From the NCBI GenBank assembly GCA_964017155.1, contig OZ024862.1, positions 35,698,690 through 35,762,689 of the forward strand: a stretch of DNA of 64,000 nt, given 5' to 3'. Below, piece by piece: positions 12,217 to 33,200 of the stretch. The stretch comes from Oasisia sp. SBJ-2009 (taxonomy: Eukaryota; Annelida; Polychaeta; Sabellida; Siboglinidae). Position 1 is the stretch's first letter. Every line of letters starts with the position of its first letter. A program made the translations under genes and the position numbers. Under the pieces are notes generated by a model, which saw only the letters and a program-made list of their open reading frames with translations, searched no databases and was not told the origin of the DNA.

Positions 12217-15200
12217 ATGTCAAAGCGAACAGTGCTCACGCCTTCAGGACATGCTGTTGGTGAGTCAATGAAGGACACGGTTGACGTGTTGCAGTCACGC
12301 TTGGCTGGCACCGAGAGTGACACCCAGCTGCTGGCTCGACAACTTAAAGAGCTCGGTTTCCAGCCAGATTCATCACACAACCCCGGGAGTATATTCAGCA
12401 TTGAAGATAAACCGGGGATAATTGCACCGTTCAGAGACAAGTCTTATAACGAGACGTTAGTTCGGAACTACGAAGGCATGGTATCCCGCGTGTGTAAGCT
12501 AGAGAGCGTCATCCACACCCTCAAGCTGAGCATCCTGCGTCTACAGTCGTCGCAGGAACTGGTGAAGAAGGAGAACTTGTGTGCAACAGAGAGACTGGCA
12601 GTGGAGCAAGACACTCACACCCAGGAGGTCCACAAACTAAACCAGGACATGAAGGTGCTAAGACAACAGTCTCTACAGGCCGCCGAGGCCCTTAAGGTCG
12701 CCAAGGAGGAAGCCAACAAGCTGCAGGCGTCTCTTGGTGAAATATCACTGGCCAAGGTACACCGATGTATCTTTCTTCCGTCATGTTGGTGTTAATAAGT
12801 AAGCACTTCTAGCCTCCCCATTTCTATGTGTAAACGTTGATGTTATTAAAAAAACATGCAATTTTCTTTGTATTTTCCACTTGGAAATTAACTATCAATA
12901 TATATATATATATCATTACATAGCAGCTATTAAAATTATATAATAACAATTTTCTGTTTGTTTTCTGAAGAAAATCACACACATGTACAATGTTGCATTG
13001 ATACGTTTGTATTGTTCTACAAAGAAATCACACATATGTACAATGTTGCTTTGATATGTTTGTATTGTTCTACAAACAAATCACACACATGTTCAATGTT
13101 GCTTTGATATGTTTGTATTGTTCTACAAAGAAATCACACACATGTACAAAGTTGCTTTGATATGTTTGTATTGTTCTACAAAGAAATCACACACATGTTC
13201 AATGTTGCATTGATATGTTTATGTTGTTCTACAAAACTCATGCATCTAGTTTATTAATAAGTTTTGCTAATTAGAGTTAATCAGATCCAGTCTGCAGTGT
13301 TGTATCTGACGGGACAAACCTAACAATCTGAAGTATCCACTTCTGTAGTCTGCTGCCGACCTGGAAATAGACAGCCTGAATTCTAGCAAACAGAAACTCA
13401 TGCGACGTCTCAAGGAGGTGCAAGGTGAACTCAGTCATGAGACGAGCTTACGGGAGAGTCTCGAGGAATCCCACAATACACTGCTGCAGCGTGTACAGGA
13501 AATGGAATCAGTTGTTGAGGGAGAAAGGGAAGAGGTAGGCTGGTTTAGTTATAAGATTGTTTTTATATATATATGCGAAGATCAATTTAGTAGGTCTGGT
13601 TCATATTGGAGTACTAAGTTATTGTACATAATCGTGTCCTTTTTGTTCTTATGTTCCCATTATGCCATGTCTTTCGCTCCAATTTTTCATGACCCGTAAG
13701 ATGCATTAATTTTACCTTTGAGACGCTACCCATTTGCACCAATCTAGACATCAGAACTTCTGAGTGAAGCAAACAATAATAAAATATATATTTTGATGCT
13801 TCTGTGGTAATGAAGGTTGAGTAAACTAATAACGATATTGTGCATGTGACGTGTTATGAGTCATGGTGTGACTGCTGTGGTGCAGACATGGAGTCAAATA
13901 TATTTAAATGTATTTAAATACAAATACTTTTGAGGGATTCAAATACAAATACTTTTAAATGCAAATGTATTTAAATACAAATACATTAAAAAATATTTCA
14001 AATACTTTTCATTTTCAGGATACATTATTATATAGGTAAAAGAAACAAAATGATATATCAAAGAGTTATAACACCCAGGATGGTGGAAGTTAGTGCTTAT
14101 ATGGGATAGTGCAAAGCCCTGCTGCAAGGCTGAATGAATGCAATGGTCCCTTTAATCATTCCTCCACACCCTTTGGCAATGTGGACAGAACCCACAGCCA
14201 AGCTTTCCATTCATTCACTGAGGATCACTTAACAAAATATGAGTTGAATTGGGTTCCCCCTTTAGCATCTGTATCAACCAGGCTGCCCTGCACACTGGGC
14301 TGAGTGATGTTTGAACAAAGTCCACTGTGGCTTATATAATTGGGGATACCTGGTTTGAACAAAGGGCTTGCTAAACCAAGCCAGACTTCTTCCACTATCA
14401 CACAAAGGGAATTGGCAAGCTGGTGCCCATTAGTGCTAATCTGTGTAATTAAGGTCTTAGTCTCTGACTGTCACTGATATCACATTGGCTAATTTAGCTT
14501 AGCAGTAACTTACATAAACATAGTAGAGGAAAGAACTGACCCAAAAGTATTTGGAAAAGTATTTGAAAAGTATTTAAAATATCAAATACTTTAGGAAAGT
14601 ATTTAAATACAAATACTTTCAATTCCTAAATGTCAAATACAAATACTTAAAAAAAAGTATTTAAAAACTTTCAAATACAAATGTATTTGGCCCCATGTCT
14701 GCTGTGGTCTGTGTTGTCAGGTGGCTGCAGTCAACAGGTCGTGTACGGCTCTGAAGAAGGAGTGTGTGAGTGCCCAGAGTGACCTACAGCGGGAGCAGAG
14801 TCAGCGCGGTCAGCTGGAGCAGTACAACAACAAGCTGACACGCCTCGCAGGTACGAACAACAACAAGCTAACACGCCTCGCAGGTACGAACAACAACAAG
14901 CTGACATGCCTCGCAGGTACAAACAACAACAAGCTGACACGCCTCACAGGTACGTACAACAACAAGCTGACATGCCTCGCAGGTACGAACAACAAGAAGC
15001 TGACACGCCTCACAGGTACGAACAACAACAAGCTGACACGCCTCGCAGGTACGTACAACAACAAGCTGACATGCCTCGCAGGTACGAACAACAACAAGCT
15101 GACACGCCTCGCAGGTACGAACAACAACAAGCTGACACGCCTCGCAGGTACGAACAACAACAAGCTGACATGCCTCGCAGGTACGAACAACAACAAGCTG

Positions 15201-30200: not shown

Positions 30201-33200
30201 AGGGTGGGTGGTCCACTGGGTGGGTGGTCCACTGGGTGGGTGGTTCAGTGGGTGGATTGTCCACTGGGTGGGTGGTCCACTGGGTGGGTGGTCCACGGGG
30301 TGGGTGGTCCACGGGTTGGGTGGTCCACTGGGTGGGCGGTCCACTGGGTGGGCGGTCCACTGGGTGGGCGGTCCACTGGGTGGGCGGTCCACTGGGTGGG
30401 CGGTCCACTGGGTGGGCGGTCCACTGGGTGGGCGGTCCACTGGGTGGGTGGTCCACTGGGTGGGTGGTCCACAGGGTGGGTGGTTCACTGGGTGGGCGGT
30501 CCACTGGGTGGGCGGTCCACGGGGTGGGTGGTCCACTGGGTGGGCGGTCCACCGGGTGGGTGGTCCACAGGGTGGGTGGTCCACTGGGTGGGTGATCCAC
30601 AGGGTGGGTGGTTCACTGGGTGGGCGGTCCACTGGGTGGGCGGTCCACGGGGTGGGTGGTCCACTGGGTGGGCGGTCCACCGGGTGGGTGGTCCACAGGG
30701 TGGGTGGTCCACTGGGTGGGTGATCCACAAGTAGTTAAAAAATGGGTAATCTCTGTGTTTACCGACCAGGTTACTTTAGTGTGTATCTTCCTTACTCAGA
30801 AATGAGGAACTATTCAGAATCAGTCTACTTAACCTGACTAAGATGGTGTGTCACACTACTGCCTTGGTATGGTTAAGGTAGAAATATTATACATTGCCAA
30901 AGTGACTTAAATGCAGCAAATAGTTCGCCTATATCATAATAGAAATGTTTTTAGTATGCGCATGTTATTTGTGACAAACTTGTGCCACTTTGTGAGTCAA
31001 CGAGGTGGGAATTTTAATGTTACCACATGAAGCACATCTACAGTAGTCTTGCTTTCGGGTCCAACAGCACCATCTGTCCAGACGCAGTGGACACAGTTGC
31101 AGACAGAACACAATCTGAACTGACAATGGCTGTCAACAGATGACTGTTTCACACGTATGTCAGATTTCTTTTAGTTGAGAGAACACACAAAGTGAAAGTG
31201 AAACGAAGGAGAATAAAAGATAGGTGAAGGAAGGAGTAGATGTTGATATGACACTGAGGCTGGTGAGTTAAGAGGAGTATGTGTGTTTGAGTGAGGCTGG
31301 AGAGTTGTGAGTGTGTCGTGTTGTAGGGAGAAGGCGTCTGAGGATGCGAGGCGCGAGGTGGCTACATATGAGGCGAGGCTAGCGAACCTCACGGAGCAGA
31401 TGACGAAGGAACGCGAGAAGACAGCGAGGAAAACAAGCAGGGAGGTCACTGAGGTATAGACTGGCACTACTGGGTAGTCAGGGTAGTAGTATATATGAGA
31501 CCCGTTCTAACAAAATGAGTTGCATGTCAGCAAACTTGATTTTGAGAAAAACATTGCACTGCGATATTTGACAATTTTAACTTTTCATCACCAAAACTTT
31601 AATGTCTTTTCTATCAACTGGCAATGCATATTTCCCATTTATATTACTATTAAGTACATTTTGTAACCTTTTTAGAAAGGCTACGCTTTCTTCGGGGCTT
31701 CCCTCGCCACACGGTGGACATATTTGATACTACGGGAAAGCCCAGCATGTCCACTGTCTGAATCTGTTAGAGGAATTCCCCAGTGATGTCAACTTTAGCT
31801 AATAGGAACACTTAACTGAGAAACCCATCTGTAAACAAACGTCACCAGTTATAGGGCGCTGCTCATAGTGGTCATATGCACATATATGTATGTATTTATA
31901 TACCAGGGTATGTGTGTGTATATATATAATGCCTGTAATTACTTGATATATATATAATATATATATATATATATAATGCCGTTTAATTACCTGAATGTCA
32001 GAAACGGTCATTAAAATAGTCCTATTGCTTTTATTAGTCAAACTTACGTCGTAGGTACGGAAACAGTTGGACAACTGTCTGAGTAGGAACGCTGAGATGA
32101 CGAAACAGAACACGACGCTGAAGCACCAAGTGAGTGAGCTGGAGACGGACCTGAAGGAGATGAAGGTGAAGATGTCCTCTCAGAGGAGTCACATCGAACA
32201 CCTGACCAAGATGAGACGGAGGCAGGATGAGGAGGTGCACAAGCTGCAGGTGGGTGGCTGGCTTCTGTGTCGAATTAGTAATACGAGCACTTGGCGTTTT
32301 ATCTCTTTGGTCTGTCATCTTCTTATGGTTAGCTCATCACTCTATGTTAGCCACATGTTTGTGACTAGAGTATTGTTGACCTTGGTTTTCAGAATTGTCC
32401 ACTACAGGTTACACATTTACCCCCTGTGTGGGGTCTTTTACTTCCCCTGGCATAGACACCAGATAGAAGGCACCACCGGCTTTTAGTGTCTCTTCCAAAA
32501 GACACAGGCAAATGTGCAGTGAACGAAATTGCCTAAGTTTAAAAACGGAGGTAGGTGGGATTGAACCACCGTCCACTTAATTGACAGTCCAGCACTCTAC
32601 CGCGCGACCACCGCTCCTCACTAGGTGCTCCAGGCGTCAGCAATCACTGTACCCTCAGGTGTACCATAAAACCTGCCCTTATCATTCTCAGTCAAAGTAT
32701 CCAGGGTTAAACTCCATGTGCTTTCATTACAAAAATTGGGCTATTTGGGCTATATCCCTTACTTTGCCTATGTTCCAGAAGAGATAGAGAGTCACTTGCC
32801 TTCCACCAGATACCTTCCTTCACGTACAGACCCATCCACCCATCATTTGGGTATTAAAATACATTTTTGGATGGGTACAAATTAGAGTGGTTATGTGGAT
32901 GGATAGGCAGAAATTTGAGGACCAAAAAGCTTTGTATTATTCACTCTTTACACGTTTTGACTGGATTATGTGCACATGTACCCGCAGATCCACGTGAACC
33001 TGTGCATTTTGGACTGGTAAAAATGTAACAAACTCCTGGCAAGACGTCTTGCATAACTGTGTATTTTGTGAGATGTTTGTAGTTGGTGTAGATATCAACG
33101 TTGTTATTGTTCCTTCCAGGGCCTGAGTGAACAGCTGACTCAGCTGGAGGGAACCAAGAATGAGTACGTGAAGAAGATCAAAGAACAGGCAAGTTCAATT

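Follow-up and report, generated by a model that had tools for sequence, protein, structure and literature searches.

Minisatellites of differing units meet exon-intron junctions beyond chance in a tubeworm genome and resemble the mirages of amphioxus

Why should minisatellites in the introns of two genes so often reach the edges of exons? The question is raised by a 64,000-nucleotide stretch of DNA from the siboglinid annelid Oasisia sp. SBJ-2009 (GCA_964017155.1, contig OZ024862.1, positions 35,698,690 to 35,762,689; the whole stretch is hereafter called the window), which is part of contig 9 in an assembly of 33 contigs and 764 Mb and carries an orthologue of CCDC150 together with DDOST/OST48. 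A preliminary description of this DNA had proposed that tandem arrays of unlike units are placed on the splice junctions of one gene, with a further case in DDOST. The core of this proposal proved real, since eight of the 12 minisatellites in the introns of the two genes have an edge at most 15 bp from a splice junction, although some of the listed details did not hold. We interpret these arrays, with a probability of roughly 0.8, as mirage minisatellites, in which a junction is tandemly duplicated, the array grows and splicing is kept, and we ascribe the excess at junctions, less firmly, to a bias in growth or persistence.

Arrays were called by the same rule in the window and in a genome sample, namely by Tandem Repeats Finder (TRF) with a period of at least 10 bp and a length of at least 60 bp, neighbors being merged (Table 1). 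It was indeed found that the junction lies inside the repeat unit in CCDC150 introns 3, 9, 10 and 13, with clear exon sequence in introns 3 and 10; the earlier statement that the arrays of introns 3, 10 and 13 contain exon sequence or the exact junction was thus borne out, the share of the exon in intron 13 being its last base, followed by the donor. In CCDC150 introns 4, 5 and 11 and in DDOST intron 6, the array touches, abuts or slightly overruns the acceptor without repeating it. An acceptor motif had been described for the arrays of introns 4, 5 and 9, which was correct for intron 9, but the copies in introns 4 and 5 hold no or one AG at the score of the real site. Likewise, the DDOST array does end 4 bp before exon 7, but only abuts it and contains no competent acceptor, and the 24-bp array adjoining the acceptor of intron 11 had been overlooked. 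The TRF periods of the eight near arrays are 16, 20, 20, 24, 25, 33, 38 and 46 (or 22) bp, in agreement with the claim of differing units, although two of the periods then given, 29 and 45 bp, are not among them. When the units were compared with all 62 junctions of the window, the array's own junction was the best match in seven of the eight, and ranked second for intron 4. In the 33-bp array of intron 3 (14851-16975), the copies nearest to the exon most resemble the exon tail, and three of the four positions that vary most lie at CpG (CGC/CAC, CGCAG/CACAG, ACG/ACA), as if methylated cytosines had decayed there.

Table 1. Genes and minisatellites of the window, with a slash in the last column marking an exon-intron border; introns are those of CCDC150 unless DDOST is named.
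Feature	Position	Strand	Description
DDOST/OST48	3101..9959	+	11 exons; Pfam OST48_N and OST48_MD
DDOST intron 6 array	6594..7199	+	22/46-bp; stops 4 bp short of exon 7; no competent acceptor inside
DDOST intron 9 counter-example	8945..9010	+	32-bp, two copies, 66 bp long; interior, 152 bp from junction
CCDC150 orthologue	12217..39130	+	22 exons, 1151 aa; from spliced open frame and homology
Intron 1 counter-example	12972..13235	+	53-bp; interior, 113 bp from junction
Intron 3 donor array	14822..16975	+	33-bp unit, final 29 nt of exon 3 plus GTAC
Intron 4 second array, counter-example	17815..17875	+	19-bp; interior, 305 bp from junction
Intron 4 acceptor array	17897..18195	+	25-bp; extends 15 bp beyond acceptor; copies without competent acceptor
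Intron 5 array	18612..19504	+	20-bp; stops 3 bp short of exon 6; abuts only
Intron 9 acceptor array	26656..27827	+	20-bp unit TGTTCTTGTGTCACAG/AGTC (junction CACAG/AGTC); 58 copies
Intron 10 acceptor array	28110..29079	+	38-bp (and 68-bp); most of intron; unit with AG/GTTCAGGGCCT of exon 11
Intron 11 array	29591..29677	+	24-bp; stops 8 bp short of exon 12; abuts only
Intron 13 donor array	30187..30728	+	16-bp unit with G/GTGGGTGG, only last exon base plus donor
Intron 16 counter-example	33217..33640	+	28-bp; 28 bp from donor; unit unlike junction

Could so many contacts have arisen by chance? It had been argued that minisatellites scattered at random would rarely touch exons so often, and the counts agree. 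With arrays randomly placed in their own introns, 1.15 near arrays were expected against the eight found (p=1.2e-6); with random seeds (4.6% each), the probability of eight was 8.7e-9; and with collapsed distances and the local intron density, the comparison was 8 versus 1.7 (ratio 4.7, p=0.0016). It is to be noted that the window was chosen for the pattern, and that the independent genome sample weighs more. This sample was taken from two multi-exon families picked regardless of repeats, the myosin heads (78 exon places) and the kinesins (127), of which 121 of the 205 places (77 myosin, 44 kinesin), spanning 244,858 bp, were examined and found to contain 95 arrays, covering 15% of the sequence. 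Before any choice of splice site, 21 exon-facing array edges fell within -25 to +25 bp of the ends of hidden Markov model (HMM) hits, a density of about 1.7 edges per kb within 25 bp versus about 0.4 at distances of 50-800 bp. Junctions were then assigned by a matrix derived from the 31 introns of the window, which offered a candidate for 231 of 242 slots, 217 of them scoring at least 0. Taking as near an array that falls from -40 to +15 bp relative to a junction, with distances measured after arrays had been collapsed, 21 near arrays were counted at the 217 junctions versus 6.0 expected from intron interiors, a ratio of 3.5 (p=7e-6; 2.0-5.7 by bootstrap over segments). Both ends of introns contribute (10 acceptors and 11 donors), with ratios of 4.7 for acceptors, 2.8 for donors, 4.1 for myosins and 2.4 for kinesins; across 12 settings the ratio ranged from 2.0 to 5.9, and it was 3.3 after removal of one cluster of related myosin genes. 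The sharpest peak consisted of arrays beginning in the 15 intron bases next to the junction (10 versus 1.7). Overall, about one junction in ten of this sample has a junction array, and about half of these arrays overlap the exon by at least 5 bp. These results document, for the window and independently for the genome sample, that arrays with differing units meet junctions beyond chance.

Where the unit contains exon sequence, the direction of copying could be read by an echo test that does not use TRF, in which the terminal 30 nt of an exon were sought in up to 800 nt of the neighboring intron. A score of at least 28 was reached at 9 of 214 sample junctions, two of these apparently being paralogues of each other, and at 1 of 62 window junctions, that of intron 3 (intron 10 scored 23); at the same cut-off none of 276 inner-exon controls, taken 40-70 nt further in, and none of 1380 foreign exon edges gave an echo. 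Among the copied edges, one encodes GESGAGK in a myosin and another SINKSL in a kinesin, which we take to be conserved motifs of these families, the former being the myosin P-loop. Since these edges encode such conserved motifs, the exon is here the source and the copying ran from exon to intron, not in reverse. Arrays that merely abut a junction carry no information on direction.

Steps of growth can be followed at paralogous myosin donors that share one HMM position, in the 110 nt displayed for each. The donor at C13:31319035 has no copy; that at C13:31241535 has one extra copy, a 46-bp piece across the junction; and that at C13:31173792 has a 142-bp array with a 46-bp period, so that the second represents a two-copy intermediate. 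In the other myosin paralogues displayed, a junction occurs at or near the equivalent place with no near array, and since paralogues thus have the junction without the array, the introns probably predate the arrays. In another myosin gene, an HMM stretch (about 120-152) occurs twice 400 bp apart (C5:17714977-17715075 and C5:17715475-17715570), perhaps as mutually exclusive exons or through the copying of a whole exon.

How, then, would such arrays arise and accumulate at exon edges? We propose that a single tandem duplication of tens of bp, across or up to an exon-intron border, would place a copy of the border in the intron, and that slippage or unequal exchange would then enlarge the array. 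The outermost, exon-adjacent site would still yield the original mRNA, leaving the extra copies intronic. One end of the array would be pinned by the selected exon edge, inasmuch as the terminal copy could not be lost and deletions across that end would be purged. In the sample, near arrays are indeed longer than far ones, with a median of 484 versus 282.5 bp (21 and 58 arrays, p=0.036), and in separate runs all 21 near arrays but 45 of 63 far arrays measured at least 120 bp (p=0.004). Two-copy duplications, sought outside strong arrays at 252 junctions, showed no junction excess in a small test with strong repeats masked: 6 midpoints fell in 14,000 bp between -30 and +30 bp versus 70 in about 54,000 bp of sequence lying 60-330 bp away, and 13 in about 20,400 bp between -30 and +60 bp. 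The lack of a two-copy excess, taken with the greater length of junction arrays, favors growth or persistence over junction-directed slippage. We therefore infer, less firmly than the excess itself, that the excess is due to preferential growth or persistence of exon-pinned arrays and not to more frequent duplication at splice signals. By our own reasoning, one-sided purging alone would give at most an approximately twofold excess, close to the lower end of the range measured for the ratio.

The preliminary description had named two causes, slippage favored near splice signals and tolerance of duplications that copy a working junction, and neither was supported. On the former view, GT-rich donors and pyrimidine tracts would be slippage hot spots where more duplications begin, which suits the peak in the first 15 intron bases and the TG-rich units of several window arrays; the two-copy excess that it predicts was not seen, and we regard seeding of this kind as rather unlikely, if still a serious candidate. 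Tolerance, by which duplications land anywhere in introns and those at junctions are merely tolerated, agrees with the general abundance of minisatellites in the sample, but predicts equal densities at junctions and in interiors, against a measured ratio of 3.5, or about 2 under a harsher null. Since interior arrays should be at least equally harmless, tolerance explains why junction arrays survive but not their excess over interiors, and it is improbable as the whole account. It could also be imagined that tandem duplication of an exon piece bearing AG/GT had created the introns themselves, a like duplication being a proposed route of intron gain in the accessible text of two papers (PMC3087553, PMC2812944). 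However, in introns 3, 9 and 13 the array occupies one end of a long intron; for these three the opposite junction lay outside the two best other matches, whereas an intron gained in this manner should draw both ends from the duplicated exon piece; and the paralogues show array-free junctions at or near the corresponding place. Introns 3, 9 and 13 are very probably older than their arrays, and intron birth is a highly improbable explanation here.

A different possibility is that the copies are retained by selection as spare splice sites, in reserve for the real one. Scored with the matrix of window introns, introns 3, 9 and 10 do carry many copies that score like or above the real site: 51 of 88 GTs in intron 3 and 43 of 105 AGs in intron 9, counting the real donor and acceptor, and 9 of 62 AGs in intron 10. 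By the same matrix, however, the arrays of introns 4, 5, 11 and 13 and DDOST intron 6 have no spare site equal to the real one; in intron 13, 1 of 87 GTs matches the score of the real donor and is probably that donor itself, and in the other four there is no or one AG at the score of the real site, that of intron 4 probably being the real site. Comparison of the copies in four window arrays showed splice dinucleotides not clearly better kept than the rest of the unit, and in intron 10 the bases beside the AG are the most degraded positions. Selected redundancy is thus not supported by the site scores and the copy conservation, and is quite improbable. The intron 3 array could alternatively be coding, its 33-bp units forming a repeat domain in frame with exon 3, and the 33- and 30-bp units do leave that frame open for about 1.1 kb. 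An in-frame stop nonetheless occurs at 15972; of the four positions that vary most, three fall on the first or second base of a codon; the 30-bp units resemble losses inside a run of AAC; and the CCDC150 protein without the array aligns gaplessly at that junction with eight homologues. The stop, the codon-position variability and the gapless alignment led us to reject the coding reading, which is scarcely credible.

Several results weigh against the interpretation of these arrays as mirages favored in growth at junctions, and should be read along with it. When whole arrays were randomly placed in the short segments, a harsher null, 10.55 near arrays were expected, which lowers the ratio to about 2 (p=0.0005). 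The excess in kinesins alone was not significant (5 versus 2.0, p=0.075; 5 versus 3.1 under the harsher null), and overlap with the exon by at least 5 bp was only about twofold enriched (12 versus 6.0, p=0.027). The peak in the first 15 intron bases implies that many arrays are junction-adjacent rather than junction-copying, and the sample junctions were assigned without RNA evidence, with the matrix derived from the window's own 31 introns. Lowering the echo cut-off to a score of at least 22 gave echoes at 16 of 214 junctions in the sample and 2 of 62 in the window, but the controls were then not empty (5 of 276 for inner-exon sequence, 6 of 1380 for foreign edges). The difference in copy number between near and far arrays is a trend only (p=0.08; p=0.20), and purging near exons could conceal a seeding bias in the two-copy test.

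The gene models behind these junctions rest on spliced open frames and homology. The modelled exons of CCDC150 join into a single open frame of 1151 codons, and its 27 homologues at 25-32% identity are mostly labelled CCDC150 or CC150; alignment with the eight homologues showed few gaps at exon borders, with exons 20-22 poorly aligned. Two introns were modelled as GC-AG, namely intron 16 (33189-33922, CAG/GCAAGT) and intron 20 (37104-37859, CAG/GCAGGT), and exon 20 contains an 18-bp repeat at 37016-37081 that is entirely exonic and in frame (DDTSHM-like). The DDOST protein shares 92% identity with one from Lamellibrachia, the other 119 among the matches listed (of 1963) having at most 73%, as is to be expected of a siboglinid; upstream of this gene, at 1971-2597, (CTGC)n repeated about 126 times is followed by (TA)35. 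The window also has arrays at both ends, outside the modelled genes (3-1030 and 63744-64000; the units being 19 bp long and rich in GATCTCGG, respectively).

No standard term for arrays of this kind was known to the preliminary description, but one exists. In amphioxus, the accessible text of two papers (PMC3087553, PMC3902484) describes 'mirages' in Adh3, the globins BflGb6 and BflGb9, troponin C and PGBD5 as minisatellite-like duplications of 5' and 3' exon-intron boundaries, with variable unit length and AG/GT in many, but not all, units. The junction arrays in Oasisia match them in the three features tested: the unit spans the boundary in introns 3, 9, 10 and 13 and in several sampled genes, both 5' and 3' boundaries are duplicated, and the signals occur in many but not all units of the window arrays. 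The arrays of introns 4, 5 and 11 and DDOST intron 6, which just touch or adjoin the junction, depart from this definition. The worm arrays also differ in being found in an annelid, in several unrelated genes of one genome and with a measured enrichment over interiors, and their units are shorter and their copies more numerous than in the globin mirages. Undisturbed regular splicing and length instability, somatic instability included, also count among the traits of mirages and were studied in amphioxus, whereas here the arrays are known from the sequence of one assembly, an intact spliced frame and, indirectly, the paralogue series. A minisatellite of human IFI6 (6-16) reportedly carries a donor site in its unit and provides multiple splice donors; unlike that single locus with functional alternative donors, only some of the arrays described here have competent sites. 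In human genes of segmental duplications, according to the accessible part of one study (PMC2812944), minisatellite expansion at exon-intron boundaries can alter gene structure, about half of the internal tandem repeats are located within coding sequence, and those at boundaries may give rise to new introns; the worm arrays, in contrast, sit in seemingly older introns. The minisatellites tied to alternative splicing in C. elegans are, as far as the accessible text goes, other elements (PMC4039745). The accessible part of a tubeworm genome paper (PMC9921365) names TRF as a method and does not contain the word 'minisatellite', and listings of the open-licence literature showed no report of such arrays other than the mirages of amphioxus and the human examples above, which is weak evidence of absence.

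The present results thus add to mirages a second phylum, an enrichment measured as a rate rather than told as an anecdote, the direction of copying, an intermediate, and the likely stage at which the bias acts. The occurrence of none, one or many copies at the same junction, among paralogues or individuals, provides a means to test birth bias against growth bias. It may be, although we hold this more tentatively than the interpretation of the arrays as mirages and with some doubt, that in this annelid lineage exon edges anchor preferential minisatellite growth at about one junction in ten, independently of cephalochordates, in such a way that the selected terminal copy sustains the array while its growth lengthens introns and supplies decoy sites. 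If junctions do favor minisatellite growth, they would be a steady source of longer introns, of decoy splice sites and of raw material for new introns.

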